A stretch of 64,000 bases of DNA, from positions 1,156,347 to 1,220,346 of the forward strand of contig CP070764.1 of the NCBI GenBank assembly GCA_020349245.1, in the 5' to 3' direction. The stretch is from Chloroflexota bacterium (GTDB lineage: Bacteria > Chloroflexota > Anaerolineae > Anaerolineales > UBA4823). This document shows positions 19,010 to 45,759 of this stretch, piece by piece; positions within the stretch are counted from its first letter, which is position 1; each line of letters begins with the position of its first letter. A program made the position numbers and the translations under genes. Under the pieces are notes generated by a model. The model was not told the origin of the DNA, did not search any database, and was given only the letters and a program-made list of their open reading frames with translations.

Positions 19010-20395
19010 CTAACCCTGCAGCAGTTTAGCTGCTATTCGATTGTGATCTTCAACGAGGCGTGGTAAGTCAAGCGTGGTCAATTGCCCCTCCTTCACGACG
19101 AACTCACCACCCACAACCGTGTAATCCACATGCCGTGGGCTACAAAACACGACCGCTGCCACCGGATCGTGCAGAGCTCCGGCATAATCAAGGTTATTCA
19201 AATTTATCGCACAGAAATCTGCGCACATTCCTGGTTCAAGAGAGCCAATATCTTCCCGGCCAAGAACTGCTGCGCCGCCGCGGGTGGCGAGATCGAGTGC
19301 ATCCCTGGCGGTCATCAAGGCCGGGGTTGACTCACTGGAGAGAGAGGCACCTCCCAGGGATGAACCCAAGCGGGAGATCAGCATCGCTTGTCGGGCTTCA
19401 CCCAGCAGATGTGAGCTGTCATTGCTGGCTGAACCGTCAACGCCAAGGCCAACCCGCACACCGCAAGCCAGCATGTCCATAATGGGCGCAATTCCTGATG
19501 CCAGGCGCATATTCGATGAAGGGCAATGAGCAACTCCGCAGCCTGCCATGCCATACAGGTCAAGCTCAGCATGGTTTACATGCACAGAGTGAGCGTACCA
19601 GACATCGCTCCCGGTCCAGTTGAGTACATCCATGTATTCGACTGGGCGAAAACCGAACTGTTCAATGCAGAATACTTCTTCATCCTGGGTTTCGGCGAGA
19701 TGGGTGTGCAGGCAAACTCCATATTCGCGCGCTAGAGAAGCGCTTTCCCGCATCAGATCAGGGGTAACGCTGAAGGGTGAGCAGGGTGCCAGTACGATCT
19801 GGAGAAATGAACCCCAATTGGGATCGTGGTATTCCTCGATCAACCGTTGGGAATCGTTGAGAATATCCGTTTCATTCTCCACAACATTGTCCGGAGGTAA
19901 TCCACCTTTGCTCTCTCCAAGGCTCATCGAGCCCCGCGAGGCATGGAGCCTCAGGCCGACCTCTCCAGCTGCTTCAATTTCATCGTCCAGACTGGAGCCG
20001 TTGGGAAAGAGATAGAGATGGTCCGAGGCGGTTGTGCAACCGGAAAGAGCCAGCTCAGCTAATGCGGTTTTTGTGGAGATCCGCACCCCTTCCGGTGTGA
20101 TTCTCCCCCAAATCGGGTATAGGGTTTTCAACCAGTTGAAGAGGTTTGCATCCTGTGCAGCAGGGACTGCCCGGGTTAAGGTCTGGTAGAAATGGTGGTG
20201 AGTATTGATCAGGCCGGGAAGCAAGATATGATCCTGCAAATCGAGGATTTCATCGGCGCTGCTCGGTAGCTGACTGGTTTCCCCCACCTGCACAATTCTT
20301 CCATCCTGAATAAAAAGACCACCGCCGCTGATCTCGCGCCGCTGGTCATCCATGGTTACTAAGACGGTGCAGTTCTTGACAAGAAGAGTAGGCAT
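19010..20395 (-). CDS. 8-oxoguanine deaminase-like amidohydrolase (AtzB/SsnA-related)
   Basis: A 461-residue cytosolic metal-dependent deaminase, first gene of the operon. PGLINTHHHFYQTLTR (about 60-75) supplies the metal-binding histidines, HTHLAETQDEEVF and YAHSVHVNHAEL the substrate and metal ligands, and GLGVDGSASND the catalytic Asp. The NTHHHFYQTLTR motif is characteristic of 8-oxoguanine deaminases, which turn 8-oxoguanine into urate; related proteins include SsnA of E. coli purine clusters and hydroxyatrazine hydrolase. Guanine or another aminopurine is a possible alternative substrate. The ATG at 20395 has an AGGAAGA site six bases upstream; a TTG further upstream would lie between the operators and is rejected. 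Confidence 0.85.
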   Translation of the reverse strand: MPTLLVKNCTVLVTMDDQRREISGGGLFIQDGRIVQVGETSQLPSSADEILDLQDHILLPGLINTHHHFYQTLTRAVPAAQDANLFNWLKTLYPIWGRITPEGVRISTKTALAELALSGCTTASDHLYLFPNGSSLDDEIEAAGEVGLRLHASRGSMSLGESKGGLPPDNVVENETDILNDSQRLIEEYHDPNWGSFLQIVLAPCSPFSVTPDLMRESASLAREYGVCLHTHLAETQDEEVFCIEQFGFRPVEYMDVLNWTGSDVWYAHSVHVNHAELDLYGMAGCGVAHCPSSNMRLASGIAPIMDMLACGVRVGLGVDGSASNDSSHLLGEARQAMLISRLGSSLGGASLSSESTPALMTARDALDLATRGGAAVLGREDIGSLEPGMCADFCAINLNNLDYAGALHDPVAAVVFCSPRHVDYTVVGGEFVVKEGQLTTLDLPRLVEDHNRIAAKLLQG

Positions 20396-39409: not shown

Positions 39410-40552
39410 ATGCCGACAGCGGAAATCATAACCATTGGCACAGAAATTCTTCTCGGTGAAATCGTTGATACGAACACCCGGTACCTATCGTGGAAGCTTC
39501 GCGAGCAAGGCATCGATCTCTTCAAGCAAACCACTGTCGGTGACAACGCCAGGCGAATCGCACAAGCGATCCAAGAAAGCATTTCCATTGCTGATATCAT
39601 CATCACAACTGGTGGGCTGGGACCAACGGTTGATGATCCAACCCGTGAAGCAGTAGGGTTGGCAGTCGGGGTTGAAACAGAGTTCAGGGACGAACTCTGG
39701 GAACAGATCCAGGAACGTTACCAGCGTTTCGGCCGGACACCGACAGAAAATAACAAACGCCAGGCCTATGTTCCCCGGGGCGCAATCGCAGTCGAAAACC
39801 CAGTCGGGACAGCACCAGCATTTATCCTGGAAACCAAAAACTGCGCGATAATCTCCCTGCCGGGTGTGCCGCGAGAGATGGAACACCTGATGGAATCAAC
39901 AATTATCCCTTACCTGCGCCGGCGCCTGGATCTGGGATCGGTGATCAAGTCCAAGATAATCCACACCGCAGGAGTTGGTGAATCACAAATCGATGACCTG
40001 ATTGGCGACCTGGAACTTCTGGAAAACCCCACTGTCGGTCTAGCTGCCCATTCGGGACAGGTGGATGTGCGCATTACCGCCAAAGCAGACTCAGAGGAGA
40101 ATGCCCAAGCAATGATCCAGGAAGTTGAATACAAACTGCGTGAGCGACTAGGTGATTGGATTTTTGGAATTGACCGGGAATCGTTGGAAGTAGCCAGCCT
40201 AAATCACCTCCAAGTAAAGGGGTGGAACCTCGCTGTGGTTGAAGCCGGTTTGGATGGAGAATTGATCCACAGGTTGGCCTCCCTCGAGGGACCCTTTGAG
40301 AGCGGCCAGGTTTTGACGAGCAGACTGAGTGCAGAGTCACTTTACAACTTTGTGAAAAACTATCGACAACTCCACCAGCCTGATGTAGTCTTAGGTATAT
40401 CGATACTTGACCAGGATGTACGCCAGCTGATTAATCTGGTTGTGATCTCTCCAGAGGGTGAAAAACAGGTTTCTCTCCCCTATGGTGGTCCACCGGAAAA
40501 TGCCATCACCTGGGCTGGGAACCAGAGTTTAGACTTAATCCGCAAATTGTAG
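39410..40552 (+). CDS. cinA: CinA-like protein with degenerate C-terminal domain
   Basis: A 380-residue protein. The N-terminal molybdopterin-binding-like domain (about 1-170) is intact, with TIGTEILLGEIVDTNT, TTGGLGPTVDDPTRE and SLPGVPREMEHL; a middle domain follows. CinA usually ends with a nicotinamide-mononucleotide deamidase (PncC) domain marked by AESCTGG. Here the matching place (about residues 259-300) reads VVEAGLDGELIHRLAS and the catalytic serine is missing, so the deamidase is likely inactive. The protein is also shorter than usual (about 410-430). The ADP-ribose/NAD pyrophosphatase-type function of the N-terminal part may remain. No strong ribosome binding site is seen. Confidence 0.8.
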   Translation: MPTAEIITIGTEILLGEIVDTNTRYLSWKLREQGIDLFKQTTVGDNARRIAQAIQESISIADIIITTGGLGPTVDDPTREAVGLAVGVETEFRDELWEQIQERYQRFGRTPTENNKRQAYVPRGAIAVENPVGTAPAFILETKNCAIISLPGVPREMEHLMESTIIPYLRRRLDLGSVIKSKIIHTAGVGESQIDDLIGDLELLENPTVGLAAHSGQVDVRITAKADSEENAQAMIQEVEYKLRERLGDWIFGIDRESLEVASLNHLQVKGWNLAVVEAGLDGELIHRLASLEGPFESGQVLTSRLSAESLYNFVKNYRQLHQPDVVLGISILDQDVRQLINLVVISPEGEKQVSLPYGGPPENAITWAGNQSLDLIRKL

Positions 40553-40620: not shown

Positions 40621-42600
40621 ATGGCAGAAATTGCAGATTACCTCTTGACCAACGCAATAGTCCTAACCATGGATGAGGAATTAAACCAGTATAGACCTGG
40701 AGCAGTCGCAATCACCGGTGATTCGATCCAGGCGGTTGGCCTTGAAAGTGACATGCGTAAATCCTTCCAGGCAAAAGAGACGATTGATTGCGGGGGCAAG
40801 GTTGTTATGCCCGGGCTGATCAATGCCCATACCCATGTCCCCATGACCCTCCTGCGAGGACTCGCAGACGACCTCCGCCTGGACGTTTGGTTGATGGGTT
40901 ACATGATGCCAGTTGAAAGGGAATTCGTCTCCCCCGAATTCGTACGCCTCGGGACACAGATGGCTTGCGTGGAGCTGATCCGCAATGGGGTAACTTGTTT
41001 CGCTGACATGTATTATTTTGAAGAACAAGTCGCCCAAGCGACCTCGGAAACAGGACTGCGCGCGCTTTGCTCCCAAACCGTGCTGAAATTCCCAACCCCG
41101 GATGCCCAATCATATGAAGAATCCCTGGCAGCAGCCCGTGATTTCGTCTCCCGCTGGAAAGGTCATCCGCTGATCGTCCCTTCTGTCGCTCCCCACTCCC
41201 CTTATACTTGCACAGAGGATATCTTGCGCGCAACGGCTGAACTGGCAGTAGAGTTTGACATACCTCTGCACACTCATCTAGCAGAGACAGAAATTGAAGT
41301 AGAAAATTCACGCAATGAGAACGGAATGCCAGTCATTCCGTATGTCAAGAAGAACAATATCTTCGATGCCAAGGTGCTGGCTGCGCATTGTGTTCACGTC
41401 GATGAAGGAGAAATGCATACCCTCCACCACCACGGAGCAGGTGTTGCCCACTGCCCATCATCAAACCTAAAGCTTGCTTCCGGAGCTGCCCCGGTGAGCA
41501 AAATGCTCAAACTAGGTCTGAATGTAGGCATCGGTACGGATGGACCTGCCTCAAATAACGACCTGGATATGTTCGAAGAGATCCGCTTGGCTGCTTTTTT
41601 AGCGAAAGGAATCACCAAGGATCCCACGACCGTCCCGGCGACAACGGCCCTGGCCATGGGCACCCGCCTGGGTGCTAAGGCGATGCACATGGACCATTTG
41701 ATCGGCACACTGGAGCCCGGAAAACGAGCAGACTTGATTATTGTCGATATTGCTACCCTTCACAACTCGCCCCGCTTCCTGCGGGACGAGGTGAATGTGT
41801 ATTCCCAATTAGTCTACTCAGCAAAATCCAGCGACGTGCAATCCGTTATGGTCAACGGACGCTGGTTGATGCGCGATCAGGTGCTGAAGACTATAGATTA
41901 TGCCAACTTGATCCAGGAAGCAGATGAATATGCTCATCGCATTGATTCTTTCCTGATCGAGCGCGAGAAATCGGTCTTGTCCAAATTAGTGGCTATTGGC
42001 GGTGCCATGGAAGGGGAAAGCTTCGAAGTCCAGGTAAAAATTCGCATCCCTGATCCAAAACCAATCTTGTCAGCCATCAATTCGCCAGGATTGGAAATCC
42101 TGTATTCCAGACATTATCACGAATATGATGTCTATTTTATGTTCGATGATCCCTCCCAGGGGATTTTACGTTATCGTGAGGATGAATATATCGATGACAA
42201 TGATGAGATTACCAACATTCGCTACCGACTGACGATGATCGGACCAACTCGCGAGGCCCAATTTGAAAGCGATGTACTCCTATCTCGAAGCCGCTATCTC
42301 GCACCTGCTACACACAGCCTGCGCTTCTACCGCGAGTATTTCAACCCTACGAAAGAGGTGGTGATCGAGAAACATCGGCTGCGCTGGCGGGTACTATTCC
42401 AGGGTACAGAGTTCTATATTAATCTCGACCGGGTCGACGAACCCGAGCTGGGCCATTTCTTGGAAGTGAAGAGCCGCACCTGGAGCCGGCGCGACGCCGA
42501 GCACAAAGCCCTCGTGGCCAGAGATCTCATGGATTTCCTTTGTGATTCATCCCAGGATACGCTCACCCAGGACTATATCGAGATCGTAAGCGAAACCTGA
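40621..42600 (+). CDS. SAH/MTA deaminase-like amidohydrolase fused to a CYTH domain
   Basis: A 659-residue two-domain protein. Residues 1-450 are an amidohydrolase of the MtaD/SsnA group with the metal motif PGLINAHTHVPMTLLRG (H70, H72), HTHLAETEIEVENS, AAHCVHVDEGEM and GTDGPASNNDLDM; such enzymes deaminate S-adenosylhomocysteine, methylthioadenosine or related adenosines. Residues about 465-645 form a CYTH-like domain: FEVQVKIRI in place of the ExExK signature, LRYRED, VVIEKHRLRWRV, and LDRVDEPELGHFLEVKS. CYTH proteins bind or hydrolyse triphosphates such as thiamine triphosphate, polyphosphate or ATP. Some acidic and lysine positions are changed (ExQxK, LTMIGP), so it may be a binding rather than a catalytic domain. 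I know of no standard enzyme with this fusion. The two parts are in one uninterrupted frame. Confidence 0.85.
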   Translation: MAEIADYLLTNAIVLTMDEELNQYRPGAVAITGDSIQAVGLESDMRKSFQAKETIDCGGKVVMPGLINAHTHVPMTLLRGLADDLRLDVWLMGYMMPVEREFVSPEFVRLGTQMACVELIRNGVTCFADMYYFEEQVAQATSETGLRALCSQTVLKFPTPDAQSYEESLAAARDFVSRWKGHPLIVPSVAPHSPYTCTEDILRATAELAVEFDIPLHTHLAETEIEVENSRNENGMPVIPYVKKNNIFDAKVLAAHCVHVDEGEMHTLHHHGAGVAHCPSSNLKLASGAAPVSKMLKLGLNVGIGTDGPASNNDLDMFEEIRLAAFLAKGITKDPTTVPATTALAMGTRLGAKAMHMDHLIGTLEPGKRADLIIVDIATLHNSPRFLRDEVNVYSQLVYSAKSSDVQSVMVNGRWLMRDQVLKTIDYANLIQEADEYAHRIDSFLIEREKSVLSKLVAIGGAMEGESFEVQVKIRIPDPKPILSAINSPGLEILYSRHYHEYDVYFMFDDPSQGILRYREDEYIDDNDEITNIRYRLTMIGPTREAQFESDVLLSRSRYLAPATHSLRFYREYFNPTKEVVIEKHRLRWRVLFQGTEFYINLDRVDEPELGHFLEVKSRTWSRRDAEHKALVARDLMDFLCDSSQDTLTQDYIEIVSET

Positions 42601-44592: not shown

Positions 44593-44634
44593 AAAAAAAG
44601 GGAGGTCACTTATCGATCTCCTTTTTATTTTTTT
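44593..44634. terminator. Bidirectional terminator between convergent genes
   Basis: An A-run, then the stem GGAGGTC / GATCTCC (one G-U pair) with a 7-base loop, then TTTTTATTTTTTT. It serves the aldo/keto reductase gene on the plus strand and overlaps the end of the GyrI-like gene on the minus strand. Confidence 0.85.
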
Positions 44635-45239
44635 ACCCGGACAGGTTGCCTGATCACGGTTTTTAATTTTTCTGGTGGAGTCCGCCGTGGATCGCTCAAA
44701 TAAATTTCATGGTGTTTACCATTGAACTCATAACCCTGGCTGTGAATAAACTCGTGCATCTTTGCTATCACTGGTCCTTCATCCGCATAGGCTCCTAAAT
44801 AGAGGATCTGGACCGCCAATCCCTCTTCGTATCGCTCAAAGCGCAAACTGGATAACTCCGTCAGATCCTTCTTTCCTGATAAATCTTCTCTTGCTGCCGT
44901 AACAATTTCCCCGGTTACTGCCTCTGGTTGCATGAGCATCAGGGTCCACAACCACCGATCTTTGTTCGCTAGGGAGAATTCCGCCATGTTTTCCATCCAC
45001 CACAGCCCTTCGCTGGGGGGGACAACAAAATCGAGCCCCTGAGATTTAAGCATAAATTTGATCTTGTATGCCACGCCGTACAGGACTTCCAGACCATTTT
45101 GGAATAACTGGCTATTATTGGGATCACCTTTGCCATCGACCATCAGGAAATTCATTGGCGGAACCTCCACCACAGAATATTCCCTCTTGGAAGGTGCATA
45201 CAGGTGTTTTAACTCTTTCTTAAAGTCTCTTTTCGTCAT
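44625..45239 (-). CDS. GyrI-like small-molecule-binding domain protein
   Basis: A 204-residue cytosolic protein of the GyrI-like/AraC-effector-binding (SOUL-heme-like fold) group. SVVEVPPMNFLMVDGKGDPNN, WTLMLMQPEAVTG and YEFNGKHHEIYLSDPRRTPPEKLKTVIRQP are typical. Such proteins bind or hydrolyse small drug-like compounds. The ATG at 45239 begins MTKRDFKKELKHL, the usual start; a longer reading would run across the padR gene. Its start overlaps the padR reading frame by 20 bases, so the two form an operon in which padR would regulate this gene. Confidence 0.85.
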   Translation of the reverse strand: MTKRDFKKELKHLYAPSKREYSVVEVPPMNFLMVDGKGDPNNSQLFQNGLEVLYGVAYKIKFMLKSQGLDFVVPPSEGLWWMENMAEFSLANKDRWLWTLMLMQPEAVTGEIVTAAREDLSGKKDLTELSSLRFERYEEGLAVQILYLGAYADEGPVIAKMHEFIHSQGYEFNGKHHEIYLSDPRRTPPEKLKTVIRQPVRVKK

Positions 45240-45759
45240 CTTTTGCCTCCAGTTGCCGAATAAATTTTGAAAGCCAATCGATCTCCGCGGTGAGCATTGT
45301 AAAACTGAAATCAAACATGGCTTCAACATGCTCCGGAAAACTCTTCTGAGCTGTTTTAAATCGCTGTGCAAGATGGTCTCGACGATTAGCCTTATGTTGA
45401 TCAAGGGCTGTCATAATCTCGCTGTACGGGACTGCAGGCAAGCTCGAAATCTCCGGTAAGAAAACTGAATGGGCTGATGAAGGAGTTAACAGGGCTTCCA
45501 AGACACCGGAACGAAAAACTTTCTTTCCCTGCTGGTTGAGAGATTACACTTTACGCGCCGGACCTTGACCAGGCGTGTCTTCAATCCGGCTCTCAATCAA
45601 GGATCCTTCTTCAAGCTTGTTGAGAACATAATAAATGGAGGAAAAACCAAGTATTGTCCAGTCACGCATATCCCGTTCTGCTATTACCTGCTCGATTTGA
45701 TAGCCATGCCGGGGTGATTCAGCAAGGAGATTGAGAAATACGAGCTTTGCACCGGTCAT
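45220..45759 (-). pseudogene. PadR-family regulator interrupted by an in-frame stop codon
   Basis: The first 71 codons give a normal PadR winged helix (LAESPRHGYQIEQVI, SSIYYVLNKLEEGSL, PGQGPARKV). The frame then meets TAA at 45544-45546, where PadR proteins normally have Tyr in a KVY motif. The same frame continues after the stop as SLNQQGKKVFRSGVLEALL and a PadR-like C-terminal helical region to 45220. No shift is needed: the codon phase is identical on both sides. So this is either a recent nonsense mutation (TAC or TAT to TAA), a sequencing error, or a stop-codon readthrough. The C-terminal dimerisation part would otherwise be lost. Confidence 0.85.

Follow-up and report, generated by a model that had tools for sequence, protein, structure and literature searches.

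A reading frame that joins an amidohydrolase to a CYTH domain raises the question of what the second domain does for the first, and whether it still cuts the phosphate compounds that it would bind. Such a frame lies in the window studied here, a stretch of 64,000 nucleotides from contig CP070764.1 of a Chloroflexota bacterium (Table 1). A sequence-only reading had described it as a single 659-residue frame with an intact deaminase metal site; the frame is indeed open, H70, H72, H219, E222, H256 and D307 are all present, and the C-terminal motifs quoted in that reading were all found, in CYTH order. The same open length is kept in most relatives. As we read it, the gene is that of a predicted deaminase joined to a putative triphosphate-binding barrel, part of whose cutting machinery is gone. 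Prediction of the full-length structure was poor (pLDDT 62) and gives no usable domain geometry.

Table 1. Features of the fusion gene (window coordinates; residue numbers are those of the fusion protein)
Feature	Position	Strand	Basis
Whole fusion gene, 659 aa plus stop	40621..42600	+	ATG start, no internal stop
Amidohydrolase domain, COG0402-like, MTA/SAH/5'-deoxyadenosine deaminase type, residues 1-445	40621..41955	+	Pfam, NCBIfam and PDB matches
H70-x-H72, metal ligands	40828..40836	+	Aligned to TM0936 H55/H57; invariant in 71 fused orthologues
Stretch with W90, E99, H192 (presumed nucleoside recognition), Q152 and S164	40888..41196	+	Alignment to TM0936
Stretch with H219, E222, H256, D307, metal and catalytic	41275..41541	+	Aligned to TM0936 H200, E203, H228, D279; invariant in 71
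Linker, mostly helical, residues 427-466	41899..42018	+	Predicted secondary structure; overall model poor
CYTH/TTM domain, residues 467-659	42019..42597	+	Model, VIA Z, Pfam CYTH on orthologues
E469-x-Q471-x-K473, altered ExExK	42025..42039	+	Invariant in 72 domains; aligns on ExExK
D503-x-Y505, DxY motif	42127..42135	+	Invariant; matched by inspection; hhalign sets it against N-x-R of the CYTH protein in the same genome
R517-x-R519, tunnel RxR	42169..42177	+	Conservation and alignment
R556-x-R558; R558 at a conserved Glu of canonical CYTH	42286..42294	+	Conservation and hhalign
K584-x-R586-x-R588, basic strand	42370..42384	+	Invariant; K584 and R586 align on canonical Lys and Arg
N601-x-D603	42421..42429	+	Invariant; D603 aligns on canonical Asp
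E615-x-K617, altered ExE: metal-1 Glu kept, metal-2 Glu changed to Lys	42463..42471	+	Invariant; roles from PMC8233210, PMC4641920
K629, C-terminal (plug) helix	42505..42507	+	Invariant

The deaminase domain and its substrate

Pfam Amidohydro_1 covers residues 61-415 at 1.4e-73 (248.5 bits, for a curated cut-off of 25). Against NCBIfam the fusion protein stays below every cut-off shown, with 457.7 bits for PRK09045 (equivalog cut-off 540) and 298.3 bits for the MTA/SAH deaminase model NF012037/PRK15493 (cut-off 779), which leaves it outside an equivalog-level match. The best PDB sequence matches of this part are 3lnp and 4f0r; 4dzh and 4dyk are matched as well, the latter being a P. aeruginosa protein. 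With MTA/SAH deaminases (TM0936, 1p1m and 2plm; 4f0r; 4dyk) it has in common the metal ligands, the catalytic Glu, His and Asp and the nucleoside-recognition positions, and TM0936 is 36% identical to it over 401 residues. W90, E99 and H192, which we take to be the nucleoside-recognition positions from the roles of their TM0936 counterparts, are invariant in the 71 fused proteins, as is S311. Compared with these deaminases, the fusion protein adds the C-terminal CYTH domain and lacks R136 and R148 of TM0936, two arginines that reportedly bind the carboxylate of SAH (Hermann et al. 2007). At the R136 position (Q152) the 71 proteins have Gln in 65 cases and Glu in six; at the R148 position (164) Ser is found in 50 of them, and Ala (8), Tyr (5) and Phe (3) complete the four commonest residues. 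The absence of R136 alone does not exclude SAH, since the four aligned PDB matches also lack an arginine there.

The genomes themselves give further indications. SAH hydrolases that prefer SAH carry the motif HxTxE, and those that prefer S-inosylhomocysteine carry HxExK (PMC10978960). The SAH hydrolases of 31 genomes, 19 carriers of the fusion among them, have HxTxE, with one HxTxQ; as those of the 19 carriers are HxTxE, the route of M. jannaschii and T. maritima, in which deaminated SAH goes to an S-inosylhomocysteine hydrolase, is not supported. Besides, genes for SAH hydrolase (AdoHcyase) and for PNP/MTAP-family enzymes (PNP_UDP_1) occur in 31/31 genomes, carriers and non-carriers alike, so that no gap in the salvage of SAH or MTA calls for the deaminase, and we rejected this explanation. 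Two PNP-family copies of the window's own genome carry the motif TDYDVW and are presumably MTAP-like. The replacement of the two TM0936 arginines, the HxTxE motif of the carriers' SAH hydrolases and the presence of salvage genes throughout thus weaken SAH, one of the substrates put forward by the sequence-only reading; MTA, 5'-deoxyadenosine or adenosine appears more likely as the substrate.

The CYTH domain and its tunnel

Searched singly, residues 455-659 of the window protein have no match in Pfam, NCBIfam or PDB sequences, and a search of PDB sequences with the family profile also gave zero matches. The sequence-only reading would have given up its CYTH assignment if residues 465-645 matched no CYTH profile: this is what happens with the window sequence alone, but across orthologues the match is significant. 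Pfam CYTH (PF01928) matches 22 of 38 diverse orthologous domains (best 1.5e-8), several of them above the cut-off of 23.2 bits (35.1, 31.6 and 28.5 bits), which the window's own copy does not reach; the single-sequence search is thus misleading. Profile-profile comparison (hhalign) with canonical Chloroflexota CYTH gave a probability of 79.5% with E 1.8e-6, and, with other settings, 67% with 5.1e-5 or 97% with 4.5e-11. The domain modelled from eleven sequences (pLDDT 83.2) has the eight strands of a TTM barrel, and by Foldseek and VIA-align the CYTH/TTM proteins rank top against it (Z 17-19, 2.2-2.5 Å), e.g. 2een (Z 18.8, rmsd 2.3 Å over 169 residues), YpCyaB 3n0z (Z 17.1) and SaTTM 7ns9 (Z 17.0). 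By its profiles and predicted fold the second domain is a CYTH domain at the family level, and the initial assignment holds at that level. As the domain escapes Pfam in many members, these proteins are probably listed in databases as plain amidohydrolases.

Two identities within CYTH were rejected because their diagnostic motifs are absent. CyaB, the class IV adenylyl cyclase, has an HF motif before ExExK, and thiamine triphosphatase has W/Y-x-R-x-R (PMC8233210). The HF motif is absent from the eleven sequences compared (the window protein has M463-E464 there), and the thiamine triphosphatase motif is without its conserved aromatic: position 515 is Arg in 22 of 38 domains, Tyr in six, and Ile or others in the remainder.

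In 38 diverse members E469, Q471, K473, D503, Y505, R517, R519, T538, K584, R586, R588, N601, D603, E615, K617, R619 and K629 are invariant, and the invariant motif residues stand mostly at alternate strand positions. Over all strand positions, inward and outward ones differ only slightly in conservation (0.74 vs 0.66, one-sided p 0.047), so that the case for ligand binding rests on the motif residues. With the TTM enzymes SaTTM (7ns9), AtTTM3 and ygiF, and with PH1819 (2een), the domain has in common the eight-stranded barrel, the C-terminal helix, RxR, the DxY motif (described in PMC8233210), the Lys of ExExK and the metal-1 Glu. In contrast to canonical TTM, it has ExQxK in place of ExExK and ExK in place of the ExE that bears the metal-2 Glu, each in 72/72 domains, and a further conserved Glu has become Arg; three acidic-patch positions are thus altered across the aligned family, to Gln, Lys and Arg. 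In the window protein Ile (I540) replaces the Lys found in the T-x-K strand of canonical CYTH, a change that could weaken the binding of phosphate.

What do these changes mean for the metals? Metal site 1 corresponds to Glu-169 of AtTTM3 or Glu-160 of ygiF, and metal site 2 of ygiF to Glu-4, Glu-6 and Glu-162 (PMC4641920); in SaTTM the first Glu of ExE binds metal 1 and the second binds metal 2, a ligand from the ExExK motif being also on metal 1 (PMC8233210). The counterparts that we map in the fusion are E615 for site 1, and E469, Q471 and K617 for site 2. By this mapping site 1 would largely survive, and site 2 would be dismantled, in all aligned members. Changes to Asp or Ala of several such residues impair TTM catalysis in AtTTM3 and ygiF (PMC4641920), a result that bears on Asp and Ala changes rather than on Glu-to-Gln itself. 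From the dismantling of the second site we infer that triphosphate or polyphosphate may be bound without being cut. The proposal made at the outset, that the changed acidic residues speak for binding, is thus supported, site 2 being lost and site 1 and most of the basic residues being kept.

Spread, origin and surroundings of the fusion

Of 61 near relatives, 57 carry the C-terminal domain, as do 89 of the 150 class genomes sampled and, in two samples of the phylum, 51/251 and 118/399 genomes; the plasmids gave no match to it. Carriers include genomes matching Chloroflexus aurantiacus (G316) and Herpetosiphon aurantiacus 114-95T (G308). Nearly all loci are open frames of at least 650 aa; the short frames of G011, G029, G338 and G007 reach a contig edge, and the matches of G576 are two contig pieces, one of which starts from base 1. 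Leaving aside G551 (186 aa) and one fragment of G189, every contig with enough sequence to judge by shows the two domains fused, and the relatives, the class and the phylum samples yielded no copy of this CYTH subfamily on its own. The two domains being separate genes in all relatives, which would have pointed to an assembly join, is thus the opposite of what we observe. The window's assembly is 92.7% complete with 5.4% contamination, which might raise the suspicion of such a join or of a fusion limited to one genome; however, the same frame recurs in more than 100 other genomes, among relatives, class and phylum samples, which makes an artefact negligible and rules it out for practical purposes. 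A degenerate-pattern scan of GTDB genomes, which missed many known carriers, returned ten loci, all titled Chloroflexota, Chloroflexi or Anaerolineae/Anaerolineales.

A quick maximum-likelihood tree of N-terminal domains groups the fused proteins in a single clade (support 99), to which an unfused deaminase of G087 is sister (support 98). The tree program gave a count of two changes; the surplus change comes from L125, a piece of G338 at a contig edge which had been entered as unfused. That the deaminase parts form one clade suggests a single fusion event.

The gene neighbours in the 21 neighbourhoods sampled do not name a pathway. In the window the fusion gene belongs to a same-strand run of ABC transporter genes, an ornithine-cyclodeaminase-like gene, an FAD oxidoreductase, a CinA-like gene and, after the latter, an inositol-monophosphatase-like gene and an aldo/keto reductase (assigned by reading the sequences; CinA alone was profile-tested). 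The CinA-like gene is near the fusion in 11 of the 21 neighbourhoods, mainly in Anaerolineales; neither it nor the parts of the window's gene order that recur in Anaerolineales are found in Chloroflexus-type genomes, so that the context does not settle the function. The CinA-like protein itself (39410-40552, plus strand) has MoCF and KH domains; its last ~130 residues, without Pfam match, resemble by eye a degenerate C-terminal domain of CinA (NMN deamidase) without the usual catalytic motif. The window also holds a second, unfused amidohydrolase (19028-20380, minus strand; G000:C1:1175374-1176726 in its own genome), ~34% identical to the N-terminal domain of the fusion, and an ORF that by eye is like a GyrI-like small-molecule-binding protein (44625-45404, minus strand).

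Possible roles of the fused barrel

The reading we prefer, with a probability of roughly 0.55, is a two-domain 5'-modified-adenosine deaminase whose non-hydrolysing, phosphate-binding CYTH barrel regulates or anchors the deaminase. The amidohydrolase would deaminate one of the 5'-modified adenosines discussed above, less probably SAH; the tunnel would hold a triphosphate or polyphosphate, probably with one divalent metal, and would leave it uncut, the second metal site being dismantled. The bound ligand might then regulate the deaminase, or anchor it to phosphate polymers; the sequence-only reading had put forward that a triphosphate may tune deamination, or that the two domains may act on linked nucleotide pools.

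The barrel might instead still hydrolyse tripolyphosphate or nucleoside triphosphates, relying on a single metal or on Lys617 to stand in for the second one. Apart from the changes named, the tunnel residues are mostly preserved (RxR, DxY and E615 among them), and of the two metal sites of ygiF it is site 1 that has the higher occupancy (PMC4641920); however, with three acidic-patch positions altered, and Asp or Ala at equivalent residues being detrimental to catalysis in AtTTM3 and ygiF, we consider this unlikely. At the opposite extreme, the barrel could be purely structural, e.g. serving oligomerisation, with no ligand at all. Non-catalytic CYTH-like folds do exist, and the Mediator Med18/Med20 chains, next in our fold ranking, match the model at Z about 11-14; but the charged residues at alternating strand positions and the Lys of the plug helix do not vary over a broad range of Chloroflexota, which is hard to explain without a ligand and renders this quite unlikely.

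Both domains might also share one substrate, the CYTH domain gripping the phosphate chain (triphosphate or polyphosphate) of a compound whose adenine the deaminase acts on. The strict fusion, with no stand-alone copy of the CYTH subfamily found, would fit such an arrangement; the deaminase pocket nevertheless retains W90, E99 and H192 of the MTA/SAH deaminases, and we hold it for very unlikely. Finally, a tunnel basic where those of tripolyphosphatases are acidic might, like Vtc4p, build or thread polyphosphate, and so link purine salvage to it; in Vtc4p metal site 1 is kept and the acidic patch is replaced by basic residues (PMC4641920). The fusion family follows the trend of this polyphosphate polymerase (3g3r) at two of four positions, but E469 is still acidic and the fold match is remote (Z 8.8); this is highly improbable.

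CYTH domains are joined to other domains elsewhere, as in ygiF (CYTH-CHAD) and AtTTM1 (kinase-TTM); here the partner is an amidohydrolase. AtTTM1/2 are without the ExExK and ExE motifs (PMC8233210). The sequence-only reading knew of no described enzyme with both domains, and our literature search, which reached few subscription papers, found no published description of a CYTH-amidohydrolase fusion either. The fusion is a new domain architecture built from known families, and it covers much of Chloroflexota. As it occurs in cultured organisms, it is testable at once; a separate CYTH protein of the window's own genome, with ExExK and ExE-like motifs (L001:1306-1920, minus strand, near C1:409843-410247), offers a useful comparison for assays. 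If the tunnel does bind triphosphate or polyphosphate and thereby changes deamination, the protein would be a phosphate-sensing nucleoside deaminase, and a bacterial case of the TTM fold used without catalysis.
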